Part shown: positions 2,935-54,724 of the stretch, in pieces
Numbering within the stretch: position 1 is the stretch's first letter
Layout of the letters: each line of letters opens with the position of its first letter
From: Tetragonia tetragonoides
Taxonomy: Eukaryota; Streptophyta; Magnoliopsida; Caryophyllales; Aizoaceae
Assembly: GCA_038025085.1 (NCBI GenBank)
Contig: CM076152.1
Location: forward strand, 30,011,501 to 30,075,500
Direction: 5' to 3'
Length of the DNA: 64,000 nucleotides
The notes under the pieces: model-generated
Databases searched by the model: none
What the model was told of the DNA's origin: nothing
What the model saw: only the letters and a program-made list of their open reading frames with translations
Program-made: the position numbers and the translations under genes

Positions 2935-3880
2935 ATAAACATTATATTTATAACTTATGAAAAACTAGACTTTTTTAAATGAACATTACGTTTATATCTT
3001 ATGGACAATTAGATTATTGTAAATGAACATTACGCTTATACCTTATGAACAATTATACTATTTTAAATGAACATTACGTTTATACCTTATGAACGATTAG
3101 ACTATTTTAAATGAACATTACATTTATATCTTATGAAAAATTAGATTATTTTAAATAAACATTATATTTATACCTTATGAATAATTAGACTATTTTTAAT
3201 GAACACTATGTTTATACCATATGAACAATTAGATATATTAAATGAACAATAGAACTATTAGGCTATTGTAAATGAACATTACGTTTGTACCTTATGAACA
3301 ATTAGGAAATTTTAAATGAACACTACGTTTGTACCTTATGAACAATTAGGCAATTTTAAATGAACACTACCTTATGAACAATTAAGCTATTTTAAATGAA
3401 CACTATGTTTATACCTTATGAACAACAAGACTATTCTAATAAACATTGCACTTATAACCGATGAACAATTAGACTATTTTTTATGAACACTACATATATA
3501 ACGTATGAACAATTAGACTATTTTTAATGAACATTGCACTTATAGCCGATGAACAATTAAAACATTTTTGATGAACATTACGTATATGACCTATGAACAA
3601 TTAGATTATTTTTAATGAACATTGCATTTATAACCGATGAACAATTAGACTATTTTTTATGAACATTTCTTTATAACCTATAAACAATTATCTTATTTTT
3701 AGTGAACATTGCACTTATAACCGATGAAGTACAATTGGACTATTTTTTATGAATATTACTTATATAACCTATGAACAATTAGACTACGTTTAATGAACGT
3801 TACGTATATAACATAAGAACAACTAGACTACTTTTAATGAACACTTATATAACATTTGAACAATTAAACTATTTTAATAA
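2935..3880. repeat. AT-rich minisatellite, about 44-bp unit, about 20 copies
   Basis: The unit is roughly ATGAACATTACGTTTATA-CC-TTATGAACAATTAGACTATTTTAA. It recurs about every 40-46 bp with substitutions and small indels. Units near 3000-3130 are most alike; those after 3430 form a variant type with 'CACTTATAACCGATGAAC'. There is no coding potential and no hairpin or spacer pattern. The array sits between the EBP2 promoter and the next unit. Confidence 0.8.
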
Positions 3881-4694
3881 ATATTGCACTTAAAGCAACA
3901 AAGGAACAAAAAAGAGAAAAAGAAAATGGAAAAAGAAAATAATACAACATTCATCTCCGTCAAATCTTCATTCATCATCTCATCATCATCATCATCAATT
4001 CATCACCATCCCTCAAAACTCAAAAGACATAGCATTACGGGCTATACAGTCAATACCACCACCGTCCACCGCAGATCACGACCACGGAACCACCCTAGCC
4101 TGCCGTCGTCCACCACCCTGAAACGATGCCCCACCCCTACCCTGCCGTCGTCGCCTTATCTCGTTGGCGAACAAATTGGAAAAAAAAAAATGTATATCAT
4201 AACAAAAATACTCAAGTTTAGTATTGATGAATTCTAGAGATCAAGAGAAGTCTAGATATAACAATTCATAATTTAATTTTAGATTTTGAAACCAGAAAAG
4301 TCAATCAAAATTTCATTGGTTTGGAATTTTGAGGTGAAAAGTGTTCATATTGCCAGTAGACTAGAAATAAGGAGATCGTCAAACAAAACAAAAGGAGGTG
4401 CCGTAGAAATACTCGGATAGTTTGACTTATTTACAAAATTGCCATTGTGGTCTATCCAAGTTGAATGGACGCAGATCCATTTAAATTTTTTACTCATCAG
4501 CTATTGGGTTGCATTGGAGAAGACTTATCACCCAAAATCCAACAAAGTAACAAAAAACGAAAATGGCCCAGCACTCTAATTACGATTCTTGAGAAGAAAT
4601 CAGATCAATGGGTTTAGAATTTAAAACAGAAAAAAAAGATACTATAACTGTAAATTAAGCAATGAAATTAGTGTAAAGTGATAAAGTAACTGAC
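3881..4694. other. gene-free stretch
   Basis: A purine-rich then C-rich patch (3900-4190, with CCACCACC and CCGTCGTC runs) precedes AT-rich sequence. The open frame over 3884-4237 is low complexity (SSSSS, HH runs) and is not credible as a gene. Confidence 0.5.
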
Positions 4695-5065
4695 CTTAGA
4701 GATTTTGGTTTCGTAATGTCTTTGGCTTCTAATGGCGGGGACTGGGATGAAGGTGATGTACTGTCGGGGAAGCCGGGAAGAGAGAGAATGGGAGGGGACA
4801 CCAGGGTTTAGGATTTGTGAATTGTGATAAACAAAGAAAGAGCAACAATTTTATTTTCCTTTGAATACCACTTCCTGAACCAGGCCACACAAATGTAACA
4901 AAACCAAAATTCCACCCGCCCAATCACTAATCACTATTTTAAATAGATAACTTTCGGCTTAGAAATAATAGAAATATTAATAAATAAATTAAATAATTAA
5001 TTAAGAAGAAGAAGCATACTTTTGAAAAAGCTATGAAACTATTTTTTTTCTTTGATAAAAATGAA
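4695..5065 (-). repeat. orphan promoter/first-exon cassette, copy 1
   Basis: From about 4753 to 5065 this matches 6871-7175 closely, with shared landmarks GATGTACTGTCGGGGAAG, AGAGCAACAATTTT and AACTTTCGGCTTAG. On the minus strand it reads like a leader: a CT-rich stretch, then an exon ending CTAAG|GTCAGTTAC (donor near 4695). No coding exon follows on the minus strand before EBP2's own promoter. Compared with copy 2, its telo-box is broken (AAATCCTAA) and its site II boxes are lost. Confidence 0.6.
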
Positions 5066-5380
5066 ACCAAGAAATGCTAATGCTATGAAACAAGATTCTT
5101 TGCTGATAGCTTTACAATAGGTGATGTTCATTCCCTTAGTGTTATTACTACTTGAATAGCAGGCTTGATATGGCTTATTTGTGAAACAGTTCGCATTAAT
5201 ACCACACCCTTATTAAAATTTTGACTAATTTGTCCTTTTATAATTTTAGGCCCTAATTCAGTTTCTACACCAACTTATAATACTAATAAAGTTGTTAGTC
5301 ATTGTTAGTCATACAATACTCTCTGTGAATCGGGTTAACTTTACAGTTCAAATCAACTATTCAATCAATCTCAATTGCGA

Positions 5381-6870: not shown

Positions 6871-7175
6871 CGATGTACTGTCGGGGAAGAGAGAGAATGG
6901 GAGGGACACCAAGGTTTAGGGTTTGTGAATTGTGATAAACAAAGAAAGAGCAACAATTTTGTTTTCCTTTGAATACCACTTCCTGGCCCAGCCCACACAA
7001 ATATAACAAAACCAAAACTCCACCCACCCACTCACTAATCACTAATTTAAATAAATAACTTTCGGCTTAGGAATAATAGAAAAATTAATAAATAAATAAA
7101 TAAATTAATTAAGAAGAAGAAGCAGAATTTTGAAAAAGCTATGAAACTTTTTTTTTCTTCGATAAAAATGAAACC
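6871..7175 (-). repeat. orphan promoter/first-exon cassette, copy 2
   Basis: This is the second copy of 4753-5065. It keeps an intact telo-box AAACCCTAA (6916-6924, minus) and two site II motifs, TGGGCC (6985-6990) and TGGGCT (6990-6995), in the order expected for a minus-strand housekeeping promoter. Downstream on the minus strand is only MITE sequence, so the promoter drives no visible gene. Confidence 0.6.
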
Positions 7176-7267
7176 AAAAAAATTTATATATCTTGTGCTA
7201 TGAAACAAATTCTCTTTAGAGAGAAGTGAGAGCTTCTCTCTCTAACTCTCTAAAAATCATAAAAACA

Positions 7268-10188: not shown

Positions 10189-10547
10189 CATGAAAGATTA
10201 AATTATTTGCGTTACCCATAATTTCATTTATGGATTCGCCATTTTTCCAGTGGGCTTTGAGAAGAATTAAAGCCATTAGGCCTCAATCACATGCCTTGCG
10301 TATTTTGTTTGCAAGTAGTAAAGTATCACATATATGATCAATGTAACAAAGAGTTCCAACAACATTATTTGACAAAGCAGCAAATAACAAGAACCATTCT
10401 ATATATGTTATTTTTTTATTTTTTTGGCTCTTCATTCTATGTTTGGTTAGTTATTCCAAAACTATCCTAACTAGGTAATCACATTATTCTAGTGGTTGCA
10501 GTCAATCATCCTTAAACTATCTCTCATATTATCCATTCTCTCTCCTC

Positions 10548-11502
10548 ATGGAAGAGAGCATCCCGTCTCAAGAAGAAATTGACCAACTACACATATCGAT
10601 TCGTAAAACCAAGCGACGAAGGCCTAATAATGACCATGAGGATCAATTGAATCATGCTGAAGAACAAAGGGTCAACAAACTCACTGCATCACCAAAGAAG
10701 AACCTTTCCTATAAGGAAGAAATCATGGCTAGGGCAAAGAGGAATAATGGATCCTCTAACCCACAAAACATAGACAATGAATTCTAGGATAGCCAGTGGG
10801 ATGAGCCTGAACTGGAAGATGGCGTCCTTCCCGAGAATGATGATCCTAGATGTCCAACAATTTTACTCACAACGGTGAAAAAGGAAAGACTTCGCTGTCC
10901 ATGGACCATGGTGGCAGGCTCTGATCATACGGATGCTGCACAAAGGGCCTAGGTACACACAGTTGCGTAAACGACTAGAAACCAAATGGTCTCTCAAAGG
11001 AGCGTTTTCCATGATTGATATAGATCATGATCACTATGTTGTCCAGTTTGCAAACATGGATGATCTGCACTGATTTCCTCACTCAAGGACTATAGATCAT
11101 TAATGGTAACTACGTTGTCATTCCAAGGTGGATCCCTAATTTTGTTCCTGATGAAGAACCACTAGTTTTCTAACGGCTTGGATCAGAATTCCACGCATTA
11201 GTGTGGAGTACTTCGATCCAATCTTTCTCAAAGTCATTGCTGAAAAGGTGGGCAAAATCAGCAGCATAGATCGCACAACAACTGACATCTTGAGAGGGAA
11301 GTACACAAGACTCAGTGAAGAGGTTGATTTGAGCAAACCTCTCCTCTCCAAATTCAAGCTTAATGGCAGAATTTGGAGACTTGAATGGGAAGGATTAAAG
11401 GCAGTGTGCTTCCATTGTGGGAAGCTTGGACACATTGAAGAGCAGTGCCCAGTCAAAGAAGGTGACCAACCTCAAGCAAACCCACCAGCTCACCCTCCGC
11501 AA
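10548..11502 (+). pseudogene. LINE ORF1, 5' part (interrupted)
   Basis: It starts MEESIPSQEEIDQLHISI with a basic stretch, then LSYKEEIMARA and, after a stop at 10785-10787, a region resembling the plant LINE DUF4283 domain (CPTILLTTVKKERLRCPW). After frameshifts and further stops the frame ends with ISVEYFDPIFLKVIAEKVGK, then DLSKPLLSKFKLNGRIWRLE and a CCHC knuckle CFHCGKLGHIEEQC (about 11407-11450). ORF1 proteins of plant L1 elements bind element RNA and help nucleic-acid annealing. The knuckle is intact but the domain before it is broken. The gypsy element enters about 50 bp after the knuckle; the rest resumes at 26238. Confidence 0.8.
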
Positions 11503-13504
11503 TGTGATACCCCAATATTTTCTATATTTATTATATAGATTTAATTATATTTTTAAATATATTTATCGTAATTAATTTACGATAATGCAATTCTCGTATT
11601 TGAGATTATTCTCGTCATTAAATTATTGAGACCGTAATAATAAATATTACTGTTTCATAATTTAATTTATTTAAACTATTTAGTATTTAAACCGCTTTAC
11701 GAATTTGAGAGCAATTACTATTTATAATTAAAATAGTGTATTTTCGGAAATAGAATTTTTATGAGTATTTAATTATTAAATAAATAAAATCAGATTTTGG
11801 TGTCCTAGTACAACTAGATTAGGATCAAGTCAAACTTGGGCAAGAGGAGCCTATAAATAGAACCAAAGGGATCACCTTTGGACCCGTTGTTCAGCATTAT
11901 AACCGTGCACTTTCTTCCTCACAAATCACTTTATCCATCTTCATTCTCCCTCTCTCTCACGCAACTTTCTCTCCCCTTGCTCAACCTGACCGGCGACATC
12001 CCAAGGACCACCGCCGGTGAGTCGCCGCCGCCAGGCCGCCATAGGGTTGCCGTGGCTGGCGCTCTTTCTCTCTCTTTCTCCCTCACGCTCTCTCCTTCTC
12101 TCTCCCCTGTTTTTCCCCTGTTTTCCCCTTCTCTCTCTCCTATGTTTTCGTGCGTTCACGGAAGGCAAGCGCAGGACCACCGCCGCCATAATCACCCCCA
12201 CCTCAAGTGGAGTCGGTGGAGGCGCGGGCAGGGTCACGGCAGCCCAGCCGCGCGCGCAGTCGTGCCCTAAACCCCCGTGCCCTGTTTTTCTCTCTCCTCG
12301 CGAATCCGCCACCACCGGTGTCCCGACGCCAGCCAACCACCGCCAGATCGCGAGACCAAGGGAGGTCCGGTCGAGCCTGGTGGTGGTGGTGGTGGTAGGT
12401 GAGCGTGGGAGGTCGAATTTCGCGTTTTGGTTTCGTGTTCTTGAGCTTGATTTCGAAAATAAAAGAAAAATAATTTTTTTAATTAAACTGATTTATTTTT
12501 TGATTTTCAGCAATTTTAATTCTTGTTTTAATTGTATATAGAGTTTTACAAGTCCGATTGTCAATTTTCAAAAGCCTAGATTGGTTAAAAAAATTAAAAG
12601 AACTAGAATTTTACCCGTGCTACGCACGGGCGACCAAATTATCACTATATTTTTATGTTCAAATTATTTTTTGGATTTTTAAAATTATATTTAAGTATGT
12701 AAAGAATAATGAAAAATAGTGATTGGTCGAAATTTTACACGTCATAACTCATACCGCTCATAAGTCTCCTATTTAAAAAATAAAATAATATCAGTTACTT
12801 GTTACTTAACTTCCCATTGTACATCATATGTATACCTTACTAAAATGTCACTCCAAATGTGACTCATGTCAATTTATATAAGCTTATCCTTATAACTTTG
12901 TGTCTAAACTGTGTTTATACCCTCAAATATCAAACGTAAATAACTATTTAAAGCTTATCATATTAACAATGATTATCCTCACAAATAATAGTCAATTTTC
13001 ACGTAACCTACTCTGATACCAGCTAATTTAAAATTTGTTATTAAACAACTGTGGGTTTGTCAGACTTTCCCTTAATATGTATTTTACTAATTAGAATCTA
13101 AAAGTTAAAAGACTAACCTTCTTTCAATTGGAAAAAAAATGGCGACAACTCACCATCTAGAAAAAGAAGAAAGTGTATGTACTTTATTAAAATGTGACAT
13201 TTGTACGTCGATTGCGCTTATATCCAAAACTATATAAACCTTATTATATTATGTGCACCAGTTCCCCCAAATATTCATAATTTGATCTATACCAAGTAAA
13301 AAATTTTATTGTGTTCAAAACATTAAATCTGGACATTAATGTCATTTAGATTGTATCAAATGTAATTCTAAATAAAGAAAGAAATGAATATAAATAGGCT
13401 ATAGCAATTACTATAGGATATCAACAATTACTCACCAAAATAAGAACAAAAAAAAATAATAACTGACCAATCAAATTGTGACACTTGTCATGTTATCTAG
13501 GATC

Positions 13505-13715
13505 TTACCGAAAATTATATACCTACACTTATTCCACAAATATCAGTCACATGTTAATTTTCACATAACCTTCGATTATCCCCGCAAATATTAGTCAAAT
13601 ATCACCTACCATGTTACCGAAAATTATATACCTACACTTATTCCACAAATATCAGTCACATGTTAATTTTCACATAACCTGGGATTATCCCCGCAAATAT
13701 TAGTCAGATAAATAT
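13505..13715. repeat. 109-bp tandem duplication inside the Helitron
   Basis: TTACCGAAAATTATATACCT recurs at 13505 and 13614 with about 65 identical following bases, then a similar CCCCGCAAATATTAGTCA segment. The near identity suggests a recent duplication. Confidence 0.85.
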
Positions 13716-14154
13716 TAGTCACATGTTCTCTGTCATATGACCTACGCTTATTGCCCCAAATATTAATTAAATATCACCAATTTATTGCTTAATAGAAATG
13801 ATGAGTCTATATGTATGTGACCCTCATCAATTACAGGCGCTTATCCCCTAAAATTGGACAAATATATTTTGCCACGTCAAAATACATATTTTTGCCCACA
13901 ATTATAAAACTCAATAAAAGTGGTGACGTTAAGTGCTTTTATACTTATAAATATTAAATTTAATTAAATGAATGACCCAAATAATATTTAATTTAAATAT
14001 ATTCAAGTATTAAATAAATACTTTTATTGAGACATTTAATACATTAATTTAAATATCACCATAAAAGCCATAAAGACAAAAAAGGAGAAAGAAAAGAAAA
14101 ATGTGATGACCAATAAAGATGTGACATTTGTCACGTTACCAGCGATTTTACTCA

Positions 14155-14303
<149 letters not shown>

Positions 14304-15893
14304 TTTAATGGTGTTGTCAGATTTAATTTACGACAACGTTTTAATTTTATGGATTAGAATTGCTAATTCGGTAATTTGTTTTAATTAGGATCCGAGACCC
14401 GTTCATGAACTCAAACGCTTCGTAGGACTCTTTAAAGCTTAGGAGCGTAAGACAAAGTAAGCTAACATGCCAACCTTCTTCCAAATCCCAAACAAAATAT
14501 TTGTTCTTGTTACATGCTATTTGTGAATAATTATTAAATACATATTCAATGCATGATTTAATTATTCTCGTTTATAATCATGATTATGATTTATGCTATA
14601 TTAAGCATGTACGCTGTTGGGATTTGTTTACGATGTATAATCATGAATATCGGATTTATATGATGTTAAATAACTCATATATTAATTATTAATGTAATTC
14701 TTGAATTATGAATTTAATTGCTTCTATGCATGTAAGTCATGTGAAATTATGATGGATCGCTGGTCATATGAATTATATGTACGTTTTATGTTGATATGAT
14801 TACTTGTTAAAGTGGAATCATGTTATTGTGCCGAAGTGCTGCCGGATTTCTAGTATAATCCATTAGTCGCCCAATTGCATAAATTGGTTGTCAATCATGT
14901 TAACTTGAATATAAGTTAAATTGGACTCTTAGTTCCCTTGTCATTATTATACAAGTTCTTATTGAACCTCGCATGTTAAATGAATTAATAAAGAGAATAA
15001 GACTCCTAATGGATCCCTAGGAGTAGTCGAGCTTCGGAGTGCGCTAATGAGTGTTACTCAAGGGATGAGTGATTCCCAAATCTTTACTCTCTCATTATGG
15101 ATACAGCGATGTTGTATTCGGGACGGATCATTTCCCATTTATTATTTCTCTTGACTAACCATGAGTTACCTCGAGGTAGTGTGCACACTAGAGTTTTAAG
15201 TCCATGGCAAGATTATTATTCAAGGCTTCGCCTCATAAATGTCGTAGATGGTATGTCCTCGGTTTACATAAAGATGAGTGTCTTGTCTTGGTATTCCACC
15301 AAATGGCTTGTCTAGCTATCTTATAACTGTTCAAGATGAATTATGTCTTGTGTGATCATTAAATAAGATAATATTGAATGAGGTGTTGATATGACTATTT
15401 GCTTATTTGTGAGTGCAAATGAATTTCAAAGATTCTTCAAAAACCCAGGTAAGGTTTGCGAAAAGGTTTTTACTGGGTTTGGATGTTAATTACTCAGTTG
15501 ATCTGATTTTTGTTTTGTTTTCCTTTTCTTTTGTTCCCGTCATGGAAATTACTTGTGCATGTAATGCTGAGTGAGGACGTCTTAAGCATGGCGTAGTTAT
15601 TAAGTTTTCGCTTTTGAACTCTGGTTTGGTTTGGATTGTCGCTCGCGTATTTTGGGCTATAAATATTGGACAACAATTTAAGTTCACTATTTAGACAATG
15701 TTGGATAATGTTTATTAATCTTAGTTTCCATTTAGAAATACCTATTCTTTCTTTCTTTATGCTTAGCATTTACTCCTTAGTGATAAATGTTGCAGTAGCA
15801 CCCTTGGGTTTGTGACGGTTCAATGGTGTCAAGTCATAGATAATAACGTCGATAGTTCCCAGTAAATAGTTGTGAATTCGGGGGTGTTACAAA

Positions 15894-15906
15894 TGGTATC
15901 AAAGCC
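15894..15906 (+). other. primer binding site, initiator-Met tRNA type
   Basis: TGGTATCAAAGCC lies two bases after the 5' LTR. It matches the complement of the 3' end of plant initiator methionine tRNA (TGGTATCAGAGCC) with one mismatch, as usual for Ty3/gypsy chromoviruses. Confidence 0.88.
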
Positions 15907-16088
15907 CTAGGTTTTTCTATTATAGTTAGAATTAATTATATGGTTAATAAAGATTAGTTAATCATGGGATATTAAAATCAAAGGTCAAAGCCGACGAGCG
16001 TTTATGCTAGTATTAAGTTTTATGTGAAATCACAACTTACTATGTTTTGTGATTTATGAAATCCTAATTTGATGACTTACCTTTGTAG

Positions 16089-17043
16089 ATGGTAAGAATG
16101 GTTAAGACCGCAAGGAAATCGACGACTAGGAACTTTCTTGTTGCGCCTGTGTCAGAGCCAACACCTGCTCCTGCTGAATCTTCACCTATTCCGTCTGATC
16201 CTTCTATGGATTCATCACAACGTGATAGCTTTGATGAGGTTGATGTGGATGATTATGATGTTACCCAAGAGAGGCATCCTTTTAGTGAGACTATTGTTAA
16301 GCTGAGTCCTTTGAGACCCGCTCTCCATTTGAGTCTGAGATGACTTACACCTACAACTTCTATGAGGAAAGAGGTGTATTTGCTAAGGCAAGTGAGGAAC
16401 CTAAGGATGATTCTCCTCCAGCTTCTCCTGAGTATACTCCTAGTACCCTATTGCTCCAGATTCACCTCGCAGGGTTGTCCCAGGGGAGCCGTATTGCCCT
16501 CCTCTTCCCGCCCTTGTGTTGTGTGAGCAAGAAGATGAAAGAATTTGTCATTATGTGAATCGAATTTGGGAAAGTATTGAGCAATTCTGTACAAAGCATA
16601 ATGTTCTATTCTATAGTGCTCACTATGTACGATTGGTGATTGATGAGCTACCTAACAAAGATCCATGGAAAGGTGTGAAAGCTAAGTATTCCGATTTGGA
16701 AGTTGATGGTGAGCCTAACTATGAGCGATATAGCTTTGAAGGAAAGTGGTACAAGCATCTCCTTGGTGTCCGTGATGAGTTGATGTTGATCGAGAACGAC
16801 TGGATGCGCAAGGGAATTGTTTCTCCTACTACTGCATGCACTTGCCAGAAGAAGGTGCAACATATGCTTGTTCGTGATTATATCGCTGCTATGGAGCTTA
16901 TTGCTAAGAAACTTCACAGAAACTTGAAGTTTAGACCCCCATCTACTTGCAAGCCAAGTGGAGTAGTGAAGAAGGAGGATGGAGATGATAGTCCTCCTGA
17001 ATCTCGCGATAACCCTCTGAATGTCGAATGGACATTAGATTAG
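16089..17043 (+). pseudogene. extra ORF upstream of gag, unknown function
   Basis: It starts at ATG 16089 (MVRMVKTARKSTTRNFL) and runs through a proline/serine/acidic region. Apparent frameshifts lie near 16320 and 16445. It continues as LCEQEDERICHYVNRIWESI, then YVRLVIDELPNKDPWKG and a lysine-rich end to the stop at 17041-17043. Over the three frames it spans about 317 codons. The C-terminal 175 residues look like a folded, mostly helical protein (WKGVKAKYSDLE, WYKHLLGVRDELMLIENDW). It lies between PBS and gag, where standard Tekay elements have no gene; extra ORFs there are known in Ogre-type and Retand-type elements. I do not recognise the family. About 560 bp without a gene separate it from gag. 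Confidence 0.6.
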
Positions 17044-17601
17044 TTTATTTTGCTAAGAACTATTTAGATATCGTTGTGTGAGGCCTTATGAGCCAAAGTT
17101 TTGTTGTTAATTTGGATGTTGAGTCGTATAAGCAACATACATTATTGCTTGACTTATTGTTAAGTATTATTTATGCATATTTGATTTGAGCTATATTCTA
17201 CCTCTCTTACATTGTTATGATTGTTTAGATGTTTATTTCCTAAATGATGTCGCATGTTATATGCATGAACATAGATGACTTATATGCAAATATGAAAGCA
17301 TGAGCAATATGCATTGAATTCTATTATATTCATCAAAAGCTACCGACAAGTGGCTAATTCACATCATAGAATAAAATTCTATGTCATAATATTTCCTCTT
17401 GCATGGGAAATTCGCTTATTGTTCAACAAGAATAAGATGTACGACCTATAATTATGGTCTAACACCCTCAAATGATAAGAGTAGAGGTATTCTACCCAAA
17501 TCTCTGATTATGTGCCCTCAAAAATGGAAATCCTAGAAACTTAACCTCTCAATGGCTCTATTCGCCATTTTTCATTATGATTTTAGATATTTTAAGAAGC
17601 G

Positions 17602-18650
17602 ATGACTCAAAACCAAAGACTCGTGCCTATCGTGAATGCCTTGGCTACGATGGCCGGACAATTCGCGCATCAACTGGAGCGCGACGAGCAGCACCATAAT
17701 GCTCAGAATGCCGCTACTAGAGCATTCCATGATTTTGACGCTCTTAAGCCCCCAAATTTTGAAGGTGGAGCGGATCCTACCAAGTTGGAGACTTGGATTA
17801 TCGAGATGGAGAAGCTGTTTCTAGCAACGACTAGACACAAAGATCAAAAGATCGCTACGGCTTCGTACTACTTGAAGAATGAGGCAAACAAGTGGTGGTC
17901 AGATGTGGGTACAACACTGGTTGCTCAACCTAATTTTGGGTGGAATCGATTCAAGGAGTCACTTCACGAAAGGTTCTATCCTAGATCCCTTCATTGTTAG
18001 AAGCAAGCTGAATATGAGTCTCTTACGCAAGGTAAGATGACTGTAGTCGAATGTACCTCGAAGTTTAATGAGCTAGCGGTATTCGCACCACTACTGGTGG
18101 CGGATGAGGCAAATCGTAGGGCTGATTTGAGGATGGTCTCAACTGGAACATCTAGTGTTACGTAGCCGGATTGTTCGGACACGTTTCAGGCTGCATATGA
18201 TAAAGTCTTGAAGCATGAAAGGATGGTTAATCGTAGGGATATTGTTCTCAGAAAGAACAAGAGAGAGGATGGAAACTCTTCCCAAACAGTGGAGAAGAAA
18301 CCCAGGAATAGTGGGCAGCACCATAATAACAACAATGGTGGTAATAATCGAAACTGGGATTCTGGTAACAATAATAACAACCATCGAGCTGCAATCATAG
18401 TTAGAAGGAACACTCCATGCCCGAAATATTATAAGCTACATCCGAAAAAGAACTGTTAAGGAGAAGTTTTAGTCTGTTATAAATGCAACAAGACAGGCCA
18501 TAAAGCGTTTGAGTGTTGGAGTCGTGGGAAGAATAATAATGCGCCTAATAGAGGCAATGGCCAGAACAGGAATGGTAATGGTGGTAACTTCCGAGGCAAC
18601 AATGGAGGTTATAATAACAATCGTGAGAACAACAACACTGCTGCCGCGAC
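17602..18650 (+). pseudogene. gag of the Tekay element
   Basis: It opens MTQNQRLVPIVNALATMAGQ and contains the retrotransposon gag core (FEGGADPTKLETWIIEMEKL, then ASYYLKNEANKWW and FGWNRFKESLHERFYP). An Asn-rich linker follows, then a degenerate first knuckle (CPKYYKLHPKKNC) and an intact CCHC knuckle CYKCNKTGHKAFEC (18475-18516). Gag forms the particle and binds element RNA. The frame is continuous with pol but broken by stops at 17998-18000, 18163-18165 and 18457-18459. The double-knuckle layout is typical of Tekay-type chromoviruses. Confidence 0.85.
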
Positions 18651-18651
18651 A

Positions 18652-21600
18652 GTGAATCAGGCTAATCCTCAGCCAATTGCTCCGAATCCCGCACCTAACA
18701 ACAACAATAGATGTGTCAATGGTAGGGTATACGTGATGAATCGTACAGAGGCCGAAGCAAACCTTAATGTTATCACTGGTACGTTTCTAGTCAACTCTCA
18801 TCCAGCTTTCGTGTTATTTGATTCCGGTACTTCGCATTCATTTTTGTCAAGGACCTATGCAAGTAAACTGAACATGAAATCTAGTCCTATGTCTAGCGCC
18901 AGTATAACCCTGTCTAATGGAATTAGAGTATGTTGTAATGCTCGATTTGAGAACTGTCCTGTTGGTATCGTTGGGTGTGAGCTACCTGAAGATTTGATCG
19001 AAATTGATCTACAGGAGTTCGATGTGATTTTAGGAATGGATTAGTTAGCCAAGTATAGGCCTAAAATAGAATGCTTTAAACGGAATGTTTCTTTTAAAGG
19101 ACCTAGAGGTCGTAGGGTGTCATATCGAGGACTTGTAGTGAAACCTAAGTTGAACATTGTGTCGTCAATGAATAAAGTCGAGTACGCGACGAAGAACCGC
19201 GCTATCTTCCTTTTTCAACTTCAGGATATGAGTCGAGATGAGATGCCATCGACTCCTATCCCAATCGTTTTCGACTATGAAGATGTGTTTCCAGACGAGA
19301 TTCCGGGAATGTCTCCGCAAAGGATGATCGACTTCACGATTGAGTTAGCACCTGGTGCAGCGCCTATTTCAAAAGCTCCATACAGGATGGCTCCTGTGGA
19401 AATGAAGGAATTAAAGACGCAACTCGAGGAATTGCTTGATAAGGGATACATTCGTCCTAGTGTGTCGTCTTGGGGAGCTCCAGTTTTATTTATTAAGAAG
19501 AAAGACGGAAGTATGCGATTGTGTATCGATTATAGAGAACTCAATAAGATTACGATAAAAAATCGCTACCCACTTCCGAGGATCGATGATCTGTTTGATC
19601 AGTTGAAAGGAGCTGCAATATTTTCTAAGATTAACTTGAGGTCAGGATATCACCAGTTACGAATCGCAGAGCCTGACATTACTAAGACTGTCTTTAGGAC
19701 AAGGTATGGTCACTATGAGTTTACCGTCATGCCCTTTTGACAAATGCGCCAACAAAGTTTATGGATCTCATGAATCGAACGTTTTAGCGATATCTTGATC
19801 AATTTATCGTGGTGTTTATCGATGATATTTTAGTGTATTCAAAGACTAGAGAAGAACATGAAGAGCACTTGAGTATTACATTAGAGATTTTGAGACGACA
19901 TAAGCTTTATGCTAAGTTGTCAAAGTGTGAATTTTGGCTTGAGACCGTGTCTTTCTTAAGACATGTGGTGTCTAAGGATGGTGTAGCTGTAGATGCGGAG
20001 AAAATACGAGTCGTCACTGATTGGCCAAGACCTACTAACGTGTCTGAAGTTTGTAGCTTTTTGGGCTTAGCAGGTTATTATAGGAGATTTGTCGAGAATT
20101 TCTCCATAATTGCTCAACCAATGACGAATTTGATGAGAAAAACCACACGTTTTCAGTGCAGTGACAAGTTTGATGAAGCTTTTCAGGAATTGAAAAAGAG
20201 ACTGACGTCAGCCCCAATTCTAACCCTGCCATTTGAAACTAAAGGATTTGAAGTTTACAGTGATGCATCAAAGAATGGACTTGGTTGTGTGTTGATGCAA
20301 AATGGAAAGGTTGTGGCGTACGCGTCGCGACAACTAAAGAAGTATGAAGAGAACTACCCAACGCACGATATAGAGCTTGTTGCTATCGTGTTTGCCCTGA
20401 TAATTTGGTGTCATTATTTGTATGGGTGTTTAGTGACAATGTTCACAGAACATAAAAGTTTAAAGTACATATTCACTCAAAAGGAGTTGAACATGCGCCA
20501 GAGACGATGGCTTGAGTTACTCACGGAGTACGATTTGGATATACAATACCATGAGAGTAAGGCTAACGTAGTGGCAGATGCGCTGAGTAGGAAAACTCGC
20601 CACACGCTGAATACAGCTATTGTAGTGCCAGATAAGATTATTCAGGACTTGCAGAATCTCGACATTGAAGTGGTGTTGGGAGGTGAAATGCATGGCACGT
20701 TGAATAAGATGTCATTAAAACCGACTTTGCTAGATGAGATCAAAGAAAAGCAAGTGAATGATGAGGATCTCTTGCGTATTGTTCAGCATAAGAACGAAGG
20801 TCGTTCGGAAGACTTCGACGTTGGCCAAGATGGTATCTTAAGGTTTAGGAACAGGATCTGTGTTTCGAATGTTCCTGAGATTACGAATAAAATTTTGGGT
20901 GAAGTGCATAACACTCTGTATTCTGTACATCCAGGAGGTGATAAGCTTTACAAGGACCTTCGATCCACGTTTTGGTGGAAAGGAATGAAAAAGGACGTAG
21001 CCGAGTTTGTGGCTAAGTGTTTAACATGCCAGAAGCTTAAGATTGAACATAAGCGTCCCGGAGGAATGTTAGAGTTGCTAGATGTGCCAACCTGGAAATG
21101 GACATCGATCGAAATGGATTTCATCATGGGTTTACCCTTGACGCAAAAGAAGAACAATGCAATCTGGGTCATTGTAGATAGGTTGACAAAGGTCGCCAGA
21201 TTTATTGCCATGAATGATACGTGGCATATGGAAAAGCTCGCAGATGCATACGTAAAGAAAAATCATGCGATTACATGGTGTTACAGAGGATATTGTTTCA
21301 GATAGAGATTCACGATTTATGTCACATTTTTGGACAACTTTACAAGAAGCTTTTGGTAGTAAGTTGAAGTTTAGCACAACTTTTCATCCAGCTACTGATG
21401 GGCAGTCCGAAAGGACAATTCAGACCTTGGAGGACATGTTGCGTGCGTGTGCCCTTGAATATCAAGGATCGTGGGATAAACATTTACCACTAATTGAGTT
21501 TTCATACAACAACAGTCATAGTCCGAGTTTGTTGGAACGACATTAGCAAAAGGATCGTGATGGGTCCCGAGTTAATACAAGACACTGTTGACGTGGTCAA

Positions 21601-22099
21601 AGTCATTCAAGATAAGATGCATGGGGCCCAGGATCGCCAAAAGTCCTATGCAGATCGAGGTCGACGACCTGAAGAATTTGAGGTAGGAGGGAAAGTACTT
21701 TTAAGAGTATCTCTACCAAGGGTGTAATGCTATTTGGTCGGAAAGGGGAGCTAAGTCCCAGATATATTGGACCATATGAAATTCTCGAGAGAATTGGTGA
21801 AGTGGCATATCGTCTCGCTTTGGCAGTGGAACCGTCAAAAGTTCATAACTACACGCTATGTGCACGATCCCGCACATGTTGTTCAGCTTGAAGAGTTGGA
21901 ACTTGACAAAAGTCTTACTTATGAGGAAAGACCGCTTAAGATCATTGATCGAAAGGTTAGGACTATGAGAACGACATCCGTGCCCATTGTCAAAGTTTTA
22001 TGGCCTCGTCATGGCTCCGAGGACGCTACTTGGGAAGCCGAATCACTTATGCGGGAAAAGTATCCCGATTTGTTCTTAGAAGGTAAATATTTCGTCTAA
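18652..22099 (+). pseudogene. pol: protease, RT, RNase H, integrase, chromodomain
   Basis: In order: aspartic protease VLFDSGTSHSFLS (about 18811-18850), then RT with [32 protein letters not shown] and [11 protein letters not shown] (catalytic DD intact). RNase H follows from about 20240 ([24 protein letters not shown]). Integrase has HHCC residues ([12 protein letters not shown] ... CLTCQK) and a DDE core ([22 protein letters not shown]). The chromodomain is about 21900-22097 (YEERPLKIIDRKVRTM, VKVLWPRHGSEDATWE). Defects are a TAG at 19042, a one-base loss near 19737 (stop after TVMPF), a frameshift near 21262, and a loss of about 60 bp plus frameshift near 21530. There is also a stop at 21725 and a shift near 21840. 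Chromodomains of this clade steer integration to marked chromatin. The element cannot encode working Pol. Confidence 0.9.
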
Positions 22100-22119
22100 G
22101 TTTCGGGACGAAACTCCTT

Positions 22120-22359
22120 TTAAGGAGGGTAGAGTGTCACGCCCCAAAAATTTTGTTTTCTTATGACTTATTACATGATATATGTGCAAGCATTGCTTAT
22201 TGCATTGCTAAGCGAGTAGAAACACAATGATGTCACTTCCCTTTTCACGAGTCCGGATCCTAGAAATCGTATTGCGTCTTTTTAAAGACAAACTTTTTAA
22301 AATCTTGGGAGTGCAAACTCCAAGTTTTGAGGAAAAAACTTCTTTTAAGGAGGGTGAGA
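22120..22359 (+). other. double polypurine tract with foreign LTR start
   Basis: A first purine tract TTAAGGAGGGTAGAG (22120-22134) is followed by TGTCACGCCCC (22135), which looks like the start of a different Tekay-type LTR. About 210 bp later a second tract, AAGGAGGGTGAGA (about 22347-22359), directly precedes the LTR actually used (TGTGATACCCC). The 3' end is therefore chimeric. Confidence 0.6.
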
Positions 22360-25300
22360 TGTGATACCCCAATATTTTCTATATTTATTATTTAGATTTA
22401 AATGCATTGTTAAACATATTTATCGTAATTAATTTACGATAATGCAATTCTCGTATTTGAGATTATTCTCGTCATTAAATTATTGAGATCGCAATAATAA
22501 ATATTACTGATTTCATAATTTAATTTATCTAAACGATTTAGTATTTAAACCGCTTTACGCATTTGAGAGCAATTACTATTTAAACCGCTTTGCGCATTTG
22601 AGAGCAATTTCACGGTACACCCTTGAACTTTGATGAAATGCACACAAGATACATCTAAGTTTCAAAATGCACCATATACCCTTAAAGTATTAGACTTTTG
22701 TCTGCCATATGCACATCTAGTTAAGGGACTTAACGTCATCCCTTTGCTGTGAAATACTTCCATGTTTCTTACAATGATAATTATACTTTTGATTTTTTTT
22801 ATCTAGTGAAAATTTCACCCAAAGAAATTGTCAAGCGCCTCTCAAAAAAATTCGAAGAGCACTTATGAAAATATAAATTCAAGAACTTGCAATTTCATAT
22901 ATATGCCAACATGTTTTGTAATTAATAAATATTATTCGTTCACTATATCCAGTTATTCTATATTACATCATCATTTGTATAGTAGTACTGCTTAAGAGAC
23001 AATAAAGAAATGCATCCAGTTCAATACCATCAGTGACCAGGAAAGTGAGCATCAACTACAAATTTTCATTTTTAGCTTACAAGTCACAACTAATTGGGAA
23101 CAAACATGCACCAGTAAGGGCGATATTCCTTTTTTTTGGTGCGAGTAAGGGCGATATTTATGGGTAACCAATTTTTCAGATCGACAATTTTGTGAACCGT
23201 GTAATAACTGGAACTAGACAAAGAAAACATAACCTAAATAATAAAGATATATTAGTAAGAATGAAGTATTTAGTTACTAAAGGTTGTAAACAAACTTTTT
23301 GTTAAAAAAAAAATTGAGAAAAAACATGATAAAAGTGCTCCAGTATTATGGTTTTTTGGTTAACCGAATTTCTTCAGATACCAGACCGAGAAATAAAAAA
23401 AAAAAGTTGTTTGATTAACTGAACCACTTTAAATGGACAAATAGATTTGCATTGGTAATCGAATTTTTTGTGCGACTTTTAAAATTTTTATACTTTGAAA
23501 GTACATTTCAAAATTAGTCTAATGCATATACTTTCAAATCATAATTCATAGATTTTTTTTTTTATAAATTTACGATCAAAGATTACAAAGTTTAACCTCA
23601 AAAAAGCAAATATAAAGTTTAATGGGAATAAAGGGAATAATAAAAAAAAATACAAGAATAAAAGAAAAAAAGGAGTTGAGATTTTAGGAAATATGTTGCC
23701 AAACATGATATTATTTTGTCCAAGAACTTCCCCTTATAAGTTTTTTTTGTTTAAATTCCAACAACTTGACAGTCAAGAGATGGCGTTAGTATTTCATGTA
23801 GTTCTAGACCAAAACCTAAAGTTTAGGGGTATACCATGCATTTTGCAAGTTGGTTGTATCTGGTGTACATTATGCCAAACTTTAGGGGCCCGTGGTGAAA
23901 TTTCCCTAATTTAAATAGTGTATTTTCAGAAATAGAGTTTTTATGAGGATTTAATTAAATAAATAAAATAAGATTTGGAGTCCTACTCCAACTAGATTAG
24001 GGTCAAGTCAAACTTGGGCAAGAGGAGACTATAAATAGGACCAAAGGGTCACCTTTGGACCCTTTGTTCAGCATATTATAACCGTGCACTTTCTCCCTCA
24101 CAAATCACTTTCTGTCTCTTCATTCTCCCTCTCTCTCACGCAACTTTCTCTCTCTCCCCTTGCTCAACCCGACCGGCGACAACCCAAAGGACCACCGCCG
24201 GTGAGTCGTCGCTGCCAGGCCGCCATAGGGCCGCCGTGGCTGGCGCTCTTTCTCTCTCTTTCTCTCTCACGCTCCCTCCTTCTCTCTCCCCTGTTTTTCC
24301 CCTGTTTTCCCCTTCTCTCTCCTCTATTTTCGTGCGTTCACGGCGGCCAACCACTGGCGAATCCGCCACCACTGGCGTCCCGATGCCGGCCAACCACCGC
24401 CCGACCGCGAGACCAAGGGAGGTCCGGTCGAGCCTCGTGGTGGGGGTGGCGGTGGGTGAGCGTGGGAGGTCGAATTTCGCGTTTTTGTTTTCGTGGTCTT
24501 GAGCTTGATTTCGAAAATAAAAGAAAATTAAATTTTTTAATTAAACTGATTTATTTTTTGATTTTCAGCAATTTTAATTCTTGTTTTAATTGTTTACAGA
24601 GTTTTACAAGTCCGATTGTCAATTTTCAAAAGCCTAGATTGGTTAGAAAAATTCAAAGAATTTAATGATGCTCTCAGATTTAATTTACGACAACGTTTCA
24701 ATTTTATGGATTAGAATTTCTAATTCGGTAATTTGTTTTAATTAGGATCCGAGACCCGTTCGTGAACTCAAACGCTTCTTAGGACTCTTAATAGCTTAGG
24801 AGCGTAAGACAAAGTAAGCTAACATGCCAACCTTCTTCCAAATCACAAACAAAATATTTGTTCTTGCTACGTGCTATTTGTGAATAATTATTAAATACAT
24901 ATTCAATGCATGATTTAATTATTCTCGTTTATAATCATGATTATGATTTATGCTATATTAAGCATGTACACTGTTGGGATTTGTTTATGATGTATAATCA
25001 TGAATATCGAATTTATATGATGTTAAATAACTCATATATTAATTATTAAAGTAATTCATGAATTATGAATTTAATTGCTTCTACGCATGTAAGTCATGTG
25101 AAATTATGATGGATCGCTGGTCGTATGAATTATATGTACCTTATATGTTGATATGATTACTTGTTAAAGTGGAATCATGTTATTGTGCAGAAGTTTTCTA
25201 TTATAATCCATTAGTCGCCTAATTGCATAAATTGGTTGTCAATCATGTTAACTTGAATATAAGTTAAATTGGACTCTTAGTTCCCCAGTCATTATTATAT

Positions 25301-26237
25301 AAGTTCTTATTGAACCTCGCATGTTAAATGAATTAATAAAGAGAATAAGGCTCCTAATGGATCCCTAGGAGTAGTCGAGCTTCGGAGTGCACTAATGAGT
25401 GTTACTCAAGGGATGAGTGATTCCCAAATCTTTACTCTCTCATTATGGATACAACGATGTTGTATTCAGGACGGATCATTCTCCGTTTATTACGTTCTCT
25501 TGACTAACCATAAGTTACCTCGAGGTAGTGTGCACACTAGAGTCTTTAAGTCCATGGCAAGATTATTTTTCAAGGCTTCGCCTCATAAACATCGTAGATG
25601 GTATGTCCTCGGTTTATGTAAAGATGAGCGTCGTGTCTTGGTATTCCACCAAATGGCTTGCCTAGCTCTCTTATAACTCTTCAATATGAATTATGTCTTG
25701 TGTGATCATTAAATAAGATAATATTGAATGAGGTGTCTGATATGACTATTTGCTTATGTGTGAGTGAAAATGAATTTCAAAGATTCTTCAAAAACCCAGG
25801 TAAGGTTTGCGAAAAGGTTTTTACTGGGTTTGGATGTTAATTACTCAGTTTATCTGATTTTTGTTTTGTTTTCCTTTTCTTCTGTTCCCGTCATGGAAAT
25901 TATTTGTGTAGGTAATGCAGAGTGAGGACGTCTTAAACTTGGCGTAGCTATTAAGTTTCCGCTTTTGAACTCTGGTTTGATTTGGATTGTCGCCCGCGTG
26001 TTTTGGGCTATAAATATTGATAACAATTTAAGTTCACTATTTAGACAATGTTGGATAATGTTTATTAATCTTAGTTTCCATTTAGAAATACCTATTCTTT
26101 CTTTCTACTTAGTACTTACTCCTTAGTGATAAATGTTGTAGCAGCACCCTTGGGTTTGTGACGGTTCAGTGGTGTCGAGTCATGGATAATGATGTCGATA
26201 GTTCCCAGTAAATCGTTGTGAATTCGAGGGTGTTACA
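22360..26237 (+). repeat. 3' LTR of the Tekay element (with nested MITE)
   Basis: It has the same ends as the 5' LTR. Its TATA box TATAAATA is at 24030-24037. It lacks the Helitron but holds a MITE of about 1.3 kb at 22607-23907. A 34-bp direct duplication (ATTTAAACCGCTTTRCGCAT..., near 22543 and 22577) lies just before that MITE. Confidence 0.9.
22607..23907. mobile_element. long-TIR MITE (Mutator-like), about 1.3 kb
   Basis: The segment is absent from the 5' LTR. The first about 130 bp (TTTCACGGTACACCC..., ...CATCTAGTTAAGGGACTTAA) and the last about 130 bp (reverse complement GGGAAATTTCACCACGGG...) are imperfect inverted repeats. They share CAAAATGCA, TATACCC and AACGYCATC at matching positions. 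No transposase is seen. Long divergent TIRs suggest a Mutator-like origin; no clear target duplication is visible. Confidence 0.7.
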
Positions 26238-26807
26238 CCGCATGGCCCCACCATGGCCTATCCACGTCCACCATCTGAAATCCTTGAGAACTATGGCGAC
26301 TGGATGATGGCGAAACAAACACGCAAGCGTACTTCCAAGAACACCACCAGTAATGGTGGAGGAAGAGAGCAGGGAAACAAAACACCACGGGCCAACAACG
26401 GACGTCAACGGGAAAATGGTCCAAGACCGCGCCGTGAGCAGAACCGGACTGAACCCAGTTCGGTCCGCATACTTTCAAGAAATAAATCAAATTTGGAAGG
26501 TCCTCAAAACTCGAGATCTCGTTTTGCTGCACTCGAAAATATGGGAACTGAAGACGCTATTCCTCGATCCTCGAATGAAATCAAGGAGGCAGGTGAAGAA
26601 ATTTTGGAACATAATTTTGAGCATATTGTTGAGATTCCTTCCCCAACTGAACTAATGATCGAAGAAAATATCACGGAGTATATGATCTCTTCCTCTGATA
26701 TTATCCCAACCTCAAACTTGGGTGATAATTCCTTTTCTTTTATTATCACTGTAGCAAATAAAGAGAAAATAATGCCACCAACTGACACTCCTAAAAGGAT
26801 TCCCTAA
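26238..26807 (+). pseudogene. LINE ORF1, 3' part
   Basis: It resumes directly after the gypsy target duplication with YPRPPSEILENYGDWMMAKQ, the usual sequence after the zinc knuckle in plant L1 ORF1 (YGxWMxV). A basic RNA-binding stretch (RKRTSKNTTSNGGGR, PRPRREQNRTEP) and an acidic tail follow. The TAA at 26805-26807 ends ORF1. Joined to 10548-11502 it completes a single LINE protein split by about 14.7 kb. Confidence 0.85.
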
Positions 26808-27348
26808 ATTCCCATGTCCGTCCACTACAAAGCTCACACTCAACAAAAAAACTCATGACCAAACTAATGCCCACTCCCATGACACTCCCATGACCATACT
26901 CCATGACATCCCCAATGCCAATCTCACTGCCTTCACCAACATGACACCTCCCCACGTTATTGCCTCTTTCCATACTCGTGAGCCCCTCAAATCCATCACA
27001 AACTCATTCCTCTCACCCTTCCAGCGTATCTTTCCCCATCACGGCATGAGTATGGTGAATGCACTTGCACACAAGAACGACCTGCCATATTGTGAGCACA
27101 TGGATACTAGTAGTGCCTCTCCAAATTCGTCGCACAACCCAGATGAGTTGTTGCCCTTGGTTGATCAACATGACACCACTAATCCAAGATTTGAAGCGTC
27201 CAATGCCACTGAAGCCCCTATGCAAATTGGGACTCCCATGAATCGAATAGTCACGTGAGCTCTGCTCACCAGGGTTGTTAATTATTCCCTTTGCCATATG
27301 TATATGGTCTTTGAATCGTGGATATCACGCCACAATCTATTAATGTTT

Positions 27349-30300
27349 CCCATGAAGATGCTATTTTGGAATACTCGTGGTGCTGCTAGTCGAGAGTTTT
27401 TAAACACTCCCAAAGAATTAATTCACCTACACAAACCCACCATCCTTGCCTTAGTGGAGACTTGGATTAGTGGTACCCAAGCTGATCGGGTGTGTGATCG
27501 AATTGGCTATGATGGTCGACTGCATGTCAAAGCTCAAGGATTCAATGGAGGGATATGATTTCTCTGGAAAACTGCAGATGTCAACATTCTACCACTTGCA
27601 ATTCACCAGCAACACATTACGGTTGATATATCTCGTCGTGGGGAGAAACCATGGATCCTCTCGGCAATTTATGGAAGCCCTAACACTCAAAGACGAGAGG
27701 AATTATGGGCAAACCTTTCTAATTTTGCTCAAAACAACAGTATGCATTGGATCCTCGCAGGCGACTTCAATGAGACCCGCACTCTAGATGAACGTACTGG
27801 TTCTTCTGCGAGAATGGATTGGAGATGTAGAAGATTCAATCAATGGGTTGATGACTCTCAACTGATTGATCTTGATTACCTAGGTCCAAAGTTCACTTGG
27901 AACCGAGGTAATACACCCTCCACGCGTACTAGCGCCTGCCTTGATAGAGCCTTTTGTCACATTCTATGGCGTGAATTATTTCCCGAAGCTGCAGTGCAAC
28001 ACCTTGTGACTAATTGCTCAGACCACTGCTCCCTTCTCGTAAGTTGGATGGCTTTAATGACATAGATTCTAGCAATAGGCCGTTTCACTTTCAAGCGGCT
28101 TGGCTCTACATGAGAGCTTCCAAGATTTCTTTGAGCAAAAATGGCCAGAAGGTACTCCTCTTCCAAGAGCTCTTGCTTTGATTACTAGGAAATTGCTTGA
28201 GTGGAACAAGGATGTCTTTGAAAATCTTTTTAGACGCAAGAAAAGAGTGTGGGCTCAGCTTGGCGGCATCCAAGGAAGGATAGTAGAAAGAGTCACAACG
28301 GACTTGTTACGTCTTGAATATGAGCTTCTACAGGAGCTAGATCAAGTTCTAGATAAAATCAATCTTTTTTTATCTCAAAAGTCTAGAATGGAATCTTTAT
28401 TGGATGGTAATTGAAACTCAACATATTTCTATGCAAGCACCATAGTTCGAAGAAAAAGAAATTGAATTGAGGCGCTACAAGATCAAGATGGTAATTGGAT
28501 CTTTGAACCTTCTGAACTTCGTGCTTTAGTGACGGGTTATTTCGAATCTCTCTATACTAATGATAATACAAGATCAGGGCCGTTTGACCTCTGGTGAGGT
28601 CGATTCCCAACACTCACTCCTAATGAATACAGGATGCATGCTAAGAAATTTACAAGCAGTGAAGTCAAGGAAGCATTGGATAATCTAAGTCCATTCAAAG
28701 CACCAAGGCCCGATGGATTTCTCGTCGTCTTCTATCAGCGGCAATGGCATGTCATTAGTAATGAAGTGAATGAGTTACCTCTTTCTATCCTTAATTATGC
28801 GAGCTCCCCAGAAGTGATTAATAAGTCACTTATTGTTCTGATCCCAAAAGTTGAGATACCTGAGAAGGTAATACACTTGAGGCACATTGCACTCTGTAAC
28901 GTCGCATTTAAACTGGTCACTAAATCCATTGTCAATAGGCTCAAGACCATCCTCCCGAAGGTCATCGAGCCTACACAAACTAGCTTTGTCTCGGGTCGCC
29001 AGATAACTGATAACATTGTGATAGTTCAGGAGCTCATTCACTCTATGAGAAATTGTAGAAGCAAGAAGGGAATGATGGCTGTTAAGATCATCTTGGAATA
29101 GACTTATGATCGGGTTCGTTGGTCCTTCCTTAGGGACACACTACTCGATTTAGGGCTTCATATAAATCTCAATGAGTTTATTATGAAATGTGTCAGTACG
29201 ATGCGAATGAAATTCTTATGGAATGGGTCTATGGCTAACGAGTTCGTCCCCTGTCAGGGTGTCCTCCAAGGTGATCTACTATCCCCATATATTTTTGTTC
29301 CATGTATGGAGAGACTTACTCACATCATCAATGAGGGGGCATCATTTTGTGCTTGGAAACCTGTTTATGCGAGTATTAATAAACCTGCCATCTCCCATCT
29401 CTTCTTCGCGAATGACCTTGCTTTATTCACGGAGGCTTCCATGGATCAACTGAATGCGATTAAGTTTTGTCTAGACAAATTTTGTGAAGCATCTAGCGAA
29501 AGAGTTAATTATGGAAAGTCAACTATTTGCTTCTCAAAGGGAGTGGCGATGGACTTGGCTGAAAATATTGGGATCACTGTAGGGATGACGATAATTGATG
29601 ATCTGGGCAATGTATCTGGGGGTTCCAACTACTAAAGGCAAAGTCACACGCAGCACATATACTCACATTTTGGAATGCATTAGCCCTCGCCTAGCGGGCT
29701 GGAAGTGTAAGTACTTGTCAATGGTTGAATGGGTGACCTTGGCCCAATCAGCTATCTTAAGCATAACACATTATTCTATGCAATCGACACTGCTCCCAAA
29801 GTCCGTTTGCGATGATATTGATAAGGAAAGACGGGCTTTGATATGGGGTAGTAAGGAGGAGGCCCGTCGTATGCATTTGGTTATATGGCCCACAGTCACT
29901 CAACCTAAAGCCTCGGGCGGCCTAGGTTTGCGCTCCATGAGGCAAACAAATACAGCCTTTCTCATAAAACTAGTGTGGAGATCATTAACGGAGCCTGAGA
30001 GTTTGTGGTCTAGAGTTGTGCGAAATAAATACTGCTCGAGTCGGTGCGTCGTAGATATGTTCTCTGTATCATGAAGCATGTCGAATAAATGGAGGGGGGT
30101 GGTTGAAGCTTCACCAACGCTTCGGTCTAGGGTTCTCTCAGTGATTGGTCATGGCACAACCACCTTCTTTTGGCTAAACAATTGAGCCATGGCACCTCTT
30201 GGGGATGAAGAACTTGGGCGTACGGTGAGTGAATACTGGTATGGTGAGTACTGGAAGTGGAATGAGTTTTCTCACCATTTCCCTCCCCATGCTCTTGAAT

Positions 30301-31380
30301 GCATTGTTGCTCTTCGTGTGGTACCAGTGCTTAGTGCTCGTGACCGTCTTTCATGGGGCCTGAATAGTTCAGGTCAGTATTCTATTAAATATGCCCTAGA
30401 AATTATCTGAATAGGGGAGATTGAGCCCACGAGCACGAAGTGGAAACAGGCTTGGAAAGTTGCAGTGTCCCAGCGGGTGCGTAATTTCTTGTGGCTTGCA
30501 CTTCACGATAGCTTCCTCTCAAACGCTAATAGGGTGAGACGTCACATTGCTCAAGATGCTTCTTTCCCTGAGTGTGCATGTTTTGAAGAGACATGACTCC
30601 ATATTCTGCGTGATTGTCCAAAAGCCAAGGAACTGTGGCAAGTTATTATCCCTGTGCAGATGCAAAATTCTTTCTTCAATCTCTCCCTCTTTGACTGGGT
30701 TTCCCACAATATTGAAGGAGGTGATGAATGGGCCACCATTTTTGCCACAATAGTTTGGTGGTTATGAAGATGGCAGAACAGTCGTGCTTTAGGGGACCCA
30801 ACTAATATACCCCTTAATAGGAGTGTATTTGTGGTCGCTAAAGGCAATGAGTATTTAGAAGGCTCTTCCAAGCGACAAGAGGCGTTATATGGAAATAAAC
30901 GCACAAGAACTGAGGTGAATATTGGATGGAAGTTGCCTTCACAGGGGTTGATTGATCAAGTTGAACACGGATAAGGCATCCAAGGTTAACCCGGGCCCAG
31001 CAGGAGGTAGAGGGATTCTTCGTGCTGATAATGGCGCCTACGTCAAATAATTCACCATTAAGTTGGGCTTCTGTATCTCTATCATGGCTAAACTAATGGC
31101 GTTACTTCATGGGATTCGTTTAGCCAAGAGCATGCACACTCCAAAATTGTTAGTTGAGACTGACTCGGAGATCACCCATGGCATGCTCCAGGTGTCTACT
31201 CCTCCCTTTACTTCTTATTTCTATATTATTGAACAATGCAAAGAGCTTGTTCGTGACACAAGCTGGACATTTCACATTCAACGTGCTTACCGTGTGGAGA
31301 ACATGGCGGCGGACTGGCTAGCCAACTATAGCTTCGAGAGCAACGAGACGTTTCAAGAATTTGAGGCACCCTTTCCCTAG
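27349..31380 (+). pseudogene. LINE ORF2: endonuclease, reverse transcriptase, RNase H
   Basis: The AP-like endonuclease (EEP) starts MKMLFWNTRGAASREFL and has a stop at 27556-27558. It includes HWILAGDFNETRT and NCSDHCSLLV (SDH box). A frameshift follows near 28070. RT begins at about 28634 (SPFKAPRPDGFLVVFYQ); motif A is damaged (KIILE then TAG at 29099), and motif C reads FFANDLALF, where FADD is expected. The zf-RVT region follows (SVCDDIDKERRALIWGSK, GGLGLRSMRQTNTAF). RNase H (GRGILRADNGAYVK, LVETDSEITHGML, VENMAADWLANYS) ends at the TAG 31378-31380. These are the activities for target-primed reverse transcription, all inactivated. Confidence 0.88.
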
Positions 31381-31488
31381 GATGATGAATGTCTTGTTTG
31401 CTGATCTTGTTGGGGTTTCTACACCTAGGATGATTATTATGTAGTTTTTTATTTCTTTTATTTTTGGGCTTGCATGCCCTCCTCTTCA

Positions 31489-31534
31489 ACCAAAAAAAAA
31501 AAAAAAAAAAAAAAAACAAAACTATCTTTCATAT
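31489..31534 (+). repeat. LINE poly-A tail and 3' target duplication
   Basis: A nearly pure A run (about 31491-31516) is followed by the 16-bp target duplication at 31519-31534, which fixes the LINE 3' boundary and plus orientation. Confidence 0.88.

Positions 31535-54644: not shown

Positions 54645-54724
<80 letters not shown>

Follow-up and report, generated by a model that had tools for sequence, protein, structure and literature searches.

Nests of plant transposable elements whose insertion order can be read have long been known, and they are resolved by software such as REANNOTATE and TENEST from the simple question of which element interrupts which. REANNOTATE is described as automating this interruption logic and as using LTR divergence both to date an element and to set bounds for the elements lying inside or outside it (PMC2672092). 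The locus described here follows the same pattern. It lies in a stretch of 64,000 bases that was analyzed as a whole (the window; no N, 36.8% GC), and it almost certainly records three generations of independent transposition at a single plant locus: a LINE, a Ty3/gypsy element inserted in the LINE, and a Helitron and a MITE-like element inserted in the LTRs of the gypsy element. The locus illustrates a common pattern neatly and introduces no new principle. It differs from known nests in that reciprocal empty sites in the two LTRs of one element provide an internal control.

Elsewhere, the window contains ordinary plant-type genes, namely an EBP2 homologue (786-1706, E 4e-68), a Tom22-like gene (42006-42431) and a gene for a RING finger protein (57726-58796). 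Repetitive sequences outside the nest include a minisatellite of about 1 kb (2933-3892) built of 44-bp units, with higher-order periodicity at 88 and 132 bp, and a direct repeat of about 320 bp (4755-5074 and 6872-7181, 90% identical and 2.1 kb apart), which may be a small mobile-element remnant or a duplication and for which no clear ends were found. A large foldback is present at 54174-55371, with outer arms (54174-54227 and 55318-55371) that are 96% complementary and inner arms of 334 nt that are 88% complementary. This structure includes (ATT)n and 33-bp repeats, and its appearance is that of a foldback or MITE-like element. Nothing within the 64-kb window matched Rfam.

The LINE and the gypsy element within it

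The outermost element is a decayed LINE (10530-31518, + strand) that is interrupted in ORF1 by the Ty3/gypsy element. An earlier note on this DNA had claimed a 16-bp target-site duplication around the LINE, and the duplication is present (10514-10529 and 31519-31534), but its two copies are identical at 15 of 16 positions, with one mismatch; the chance of such agreement at a fixed offset is about 1e-8. The left part of the LINE (10530-11501, +) contains the start of ORF1 with frameshifts and stops, a DUF4283 remnant and a CCHC zinc knuckle. The right part (26243-31518, +) contains the remainder of ORF1 with a YGDWM motif, ORF2 with its endonuclease, reverse transcriptase and RNase H regions, and a poly(A) end marked by an A-tract at 31492-31521. 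Pfam matches in ORF2 comprise Exo_endo_phos (E 1.2e-7, above the cut-off), RVT_1 (6e-7 and 6e-10) and RVT_3 (5.9e-8). In ORF1, DUF4283 (8.4e-6) and zf-CCHC_4 (6.5e-5) are both below their curated cut-offs, and zf-CCHC (9.5e-5) is above its cut-off. The element has the features of plant L1-type LINEs: an endonuclease and a reverse transcriptase in ORF2, a poly(A) end, a target duplication within the range of 7-20 bp, and an ORF1 with DUF4283 and a zinc knuckle that is continuous with its relatives across the gypsy junction. The reading frames are disrupted by stops and shifts. Because the LINE starts 18 bp upstream of the first ORF1 ATG, any missing sequence would be confined to the 5' untranslated region. 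The poly(A) tail and the 15/16 flanking duplication suggest that, as the first step in building the nest, a LINE of almost complete coding length arrived by target-primed reverse transcription.

In a second step, the Ty3/gypsy element inserted itself in ORF1 of the LINE and duplicated 5 bp of target, as shown by CCGCA on both sides (11497-11501 and 26238-26242) and by relatives that are continuous over the junction. The insertion in ORF1 and its CCGCA duplication agree with what the earlier note had described, but the LINE boundary it placed at 11502 lies one base too far, since an extra A occupies this position between the left CCGCA and the TGTGATACC of the LTR. When ORF1 is joined at 11501|26243 it reads in frame (...PPAHPPHGPTMAYP...NYGDWMM), whereas a join that includes 11502 is out of frame. 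The A is assigned to the gypsy element or to a later insertion, and not to the LINE, because ORF1 is in frame only without it; its presence could reflect imprecise processing of the ends during integration or an insertion that came later.

Continuity of LINE homologues across the junction had been named beforehand as a point on which the nest could fail, and the reading withstood this test. Of the 26 LINE ORF1 relatives that the joined query recovered, 18 have alignments spanning the junction and 8 do not. Nine relatives in this set carry an organism name, and they come from Beta vulgaris (4), Spinacia oleracea (2), Carnegiea gigantea (2) and Linum perenne (1), which hints at a Caryophyllales host without proving it. 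Because a joined query can drag an alignment over the junction, the right part was also run alone, and 7 of the 26 relatives match it at E <= 1e-3 (best 9e-7), where the E-values were calculated over just 26 sequences, with neither masking nor composition correction applied. To the right of the junction, the G, W and M of a YGxWM motif are invariant in 14 aligned sequences, including 13 relatives chosen from the 26. This motif follows the zinc knuckle at a spacing of 37 residues here and of 34-43 residues in 13 of the 18 relatives that have the knuckle pattern; in the other 5 no YGxWM motif is found after the knuckle.

The Ty3/gypsy element occupies 11502-26237 (+) if the extra A at 11502 is counted with it, and alignment of its LTRs places the 5' LTR at 11503-15891 (+) and the 3' LTR at 22360-26237 (+). 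A primer binding site, TGGTATCAAAGCC (15894-15906, +), is presumably of the initiator-tRNA-Met type. The region at 17596-22096 (+) encodes gag, protease, reverse transcriptase, RNase H, an integrase zinc-binding region and a weak chromodomain, and is broken by stops and frameshifts. LTRs, a primer site, a 5-bp duplication and the order protease-reverse transcriptase-RNase H-integrase are all present, and from the domain order the assignment to Ty3/gypsy is secure. Integrase is seen through its zinc-binding domain alone, and no integrase match was obtained for the core piece (21256-21543). A search of a pol piece against viral contigs returned 2 pattern matches, 0 of which were confirmed.

Within Ty3/gypsy, the element is likely a Tekay chromovirus, an assignment based on architecture (an additional ORF 5' of gag, or 5' aORF) and on a C-terminal Chromo match that is under threshold (E 0.0015, 18.8 bits, cut-off 25.1). 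Like Tekay (Del) chromoviruses, the element has long LTRs, a gag-pol region, here with a sub-threshold chromodomain-like match at the C-terminus, and before gag a proline-rich ORF without known domains. Sunflower Tekay elements are described as having an extra sense ORF before gag that is proline-rich and without known domains (PMC11728184, citing Steinbauerova et al.).

Insertions in the two LTRs

The LTRs were compared block by block; a global alignment of whole LTRs misaligned around the reciprocal inserts. Three collinear blocks are obtained (11503-11724 with 22360-22582, 11725-12602 with 23907-24660, and 14303-15891 with 24661-26237). Outside the inserts, 135 of 2542 aligned bases differ (5.3%; 79 transitions), which gives a K2P distance of 0.055. 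The LTR pair also differs by several small indels, and segments of 75 and 50 bp in the 5' LTR (12162-12236 and 12247-12296, +) have no counterpart in the 3' LTR according to the block alignment, through either gain or loss. If 1.3e-8 or 6.5e-9 substitutions per site and year are assumed, the divergence would place the gypsy element at about 2.1 or 4.2 million years, respectively. The earlier note had offered the LTR comparison as a means to refute its insertion order, by the presence of an insert in both LTRs; neither the Helitron nor the MITE is present in both.

The insert in the 5' LTR is, as had been claimed, a Helitron (1701 bp, 12603-14303, - strand) that is absent from the 3' LTR, where block alignment and sequence place the empty site at 24660|24661. 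On the Helitron's own strand, a host A precedes the TC start, and the CTAG end is followed by a host T with no target duplication. A hairpin of 7 bp lies 11 nt from the 3' end (-8.4 kcal/mol, z -3.34), and 2 of 200 shuffles were as good. The insert thus has the TC 5' end, the CTRR 3' end with a hairpin just upstream, and the insertion between A and T without duplication by which Helitrons are recognized, and it resembles non-autonomous plant Helitrons in all of these respects. No ORF of at least 120 aa that could represent a Rep/helicase is found inside 12603-14303, and the Helitron is therefore considered non-autonomous; membership in the class allows this absence. In contrast to other non-autonomous plant Helitrons, an unusually long (TA) tract is located near the 5' end, as an uninterrupted (TA)70.5 array (14159-14299) adjoining the 5' terminus. 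A 109-bp tandem repeat (13505-13710) is also located inside the Helitron. Following gypsy integration, this non-autonomous Helitron inserted between an A and a T of the 5' LTR, leaving no duplication.

The 3' LTR holds an insert of about 1.3 kb (22583-23906) that is absent from the 5' LTR, which reads straight through at 11724|11725. Each LTR preserves the empty site of the other's insert, as the earlier note had proposed: the Helitron site at 24660/24661 is intact in the 3' LTR, and the MITE site at 11724/11725 is intact in the 5' LTR. Inverted-repeat alignment points to a MITE-like element proper (22606-23906) with long imperfect terminal inverted repeats, the arms of which are 71% complementary over 86 nt ungapped. 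The remaining 23 bp of the insert form a patch at the left edge (22583-22605, +) that is identical at 22 of 23 positions to LTR sequence 35 bp upstream. The location of a long-TIR MITE in the 3' LTR only was correctly recognized at the outset, but no intact target duplication accompanies it, and the best candidate adjoining the left edge agrees at 7 of 9 positions, so that the boundaries given for the element and its superfamily are provisional. With no target duplication and a left edge that is a copy of LTR sequence, the insert could be taken for a variable LTR segment or rearranged filler instead of a transposon. This is quite improbable given that the gapped alignment of the terminal repeats scores 47, far above the maximum of 20.5 in 200 shuffles. 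The inverted repeats and the empty site in the other LTR argue instead that a MITE-like element entered the 3' LTR after gypsy integration.

Mutator elements are reported to target 9 bp and to have GAG ends (PMC4423477), and neither feature is cleanly found at this insert. Its long terminal inverted repeats resemble those of Mutator-like MITEs, and the right flank, TAATTTAAA, could be one copy of a 9-bp duplication. The element is called MITE-like only, because this duplication has no left copy, which was perhaps erased by the patch. Two other possibilities were rejected. A Stowaway-like MITE with a TA duplication was discarded on sequence, since its ends would differ from those seen here despite a TATA-like site, and a GAG at 22601 was discarded as a Mutator end, since in the copy lying upstream these bases belong to the LTR.

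The patch also appears as a tandem repeat with period 35 and 2.1 copies; TATTTA is shared where it begins and AATT where it stops. The 23-bp copy and these short shared ends are most simply read as a template switch during repair. The left edge may have been rebuilt in this manner at insertion or later, by copying 23 bp from 35 bp upstream, and the event would have removed the left duplication together with the last few bases at this end of the MITE. In rice, filler segments of 1-123 bp have been reported at excision sites, and insertions there are described as generally precise (PMC4423477). Here, in contrast, the filler adjoins an element that is still present, and the likeness is an analogy only.

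The ORF upstream of gag

The aORF (16089-17043, +) is broken by two frameshifts and begins with an N-terminus, MVRMVKTARKST, that is similar to the tail of histone H3. The frame opens with MVRMVKTARKSTTRNFL directly after an in-frame stop, and the H3-like start (16089-16124, +) is located at the first possible Met. In an alignment without shift to the histone H3 tail, MARTKQTARKST, 7 of the 11 residues that follow Met are identical, and a lysine stands at the H3K9 place in TARKST; K4 and everything after residue 12 differ. The corresponding match counts are 1 for H4, 2 for H2A and 0 for H2B. All statistics on H3 matches refer to a comparison chosen after the sequence was seen: shuffling of residues 2-21 reached 7 matches in 33 of 1,000,000 trials, this start is the best of 1260 open ATG starts in the window (next best 4), and the best H3 match among 47,082 starts in 40 shuffled windows is 5.

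Protein searches with the aORF, used whole, as the third piece alone or with its pieces joined, left all 43 candidates of one set without a match at E <= 1, and no match at E <= 10 was found among 600 candidates. The first piece has no match to PDB sequences at E <= 10 (phmmer), and hence none to a histone there. The predicted structure of a 147-aa piece has a mean pLDDT of 46.3, which is too low for a fold search.

It is unlikely that the aORF of the gypsy element carried a functional mimic of the histone H3 tail. If it did, a chromodomain element would have encoded its own H3K9-like ligand, which would serve to recruit the chromodomain and methylation machinery or as a decoy for it. An H3-like peptide is not mentioned for the sunflower Tekay aORF in the main text of that report, where the word 'histone' occurs 0 times (PMC11728184). 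Among the titles listed in literature searches on histone mimicry by plant retroelements, none points to a peptide of this kind in such an element. For the chromodomains of plant group II retrotransposons, no interacting factor is reported to have been found (PMC3350952), and the H3-like peptide, if common to relatives, would bear on this open question.

Insertion order and its meaning

The nest and the order LINE, then gypsy, then Helitron and MITE had been proposed from sequence, and the structure of the locus alone supports both. The LINE is older than the gypsy element because the gypsy element interrupts it. The two LTRs of one element are copies of one template at integration; because they start identical and each insert occupies one LTR only, the Helitron and the MITE-like element are younger than gypsy integration. 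The relative order of these two cannot be read, and both belong to the last layer.

Differences between the LTRs would be uninformative on order if the two derived from different elements through recombination between gypsy copies, and the 5.3% difference and several indels are more than a very young element would show. An exchange between elements at separate loci would usually bring together target sites that differ, yet CCGCA borders the element on either side and ORF1 of the LINE is back in frame once the two sides are joined, which makes this origin very improbable. It is also hardly credible that the Helitron, the MITE or both were in the LTR before integration, and hence in both LTRs, with one copy later lost by deletion or gene conversion. 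The templated patch that scars the MITE edge does show that repair acted in the 3' LTR, but the Helitron site in this LTR is exact and scar-free, and precise excision is not known for Helitrons. The 5' LTR is likewise seamless where the MITE is missing, and the scar adjoins an insert that is still present. An assembly error joining unrelated repeats can be dismissed almost entirely, as the long (TA)70 tract and the repeats hamper assembly but misjoining is not expected to yield exact empty sites or two pairs of duplications, one nested within the other.

Nothing points to a function that the nest might have as a unit, and every coding part looked at is broken. The LTR divergence of the gypsy element (K2P 0.055) dates this element and so bounds the other three. 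With an insertion order fixed by structure and empty sites within one element, the nest is a clean case for teaching and benchmarking.
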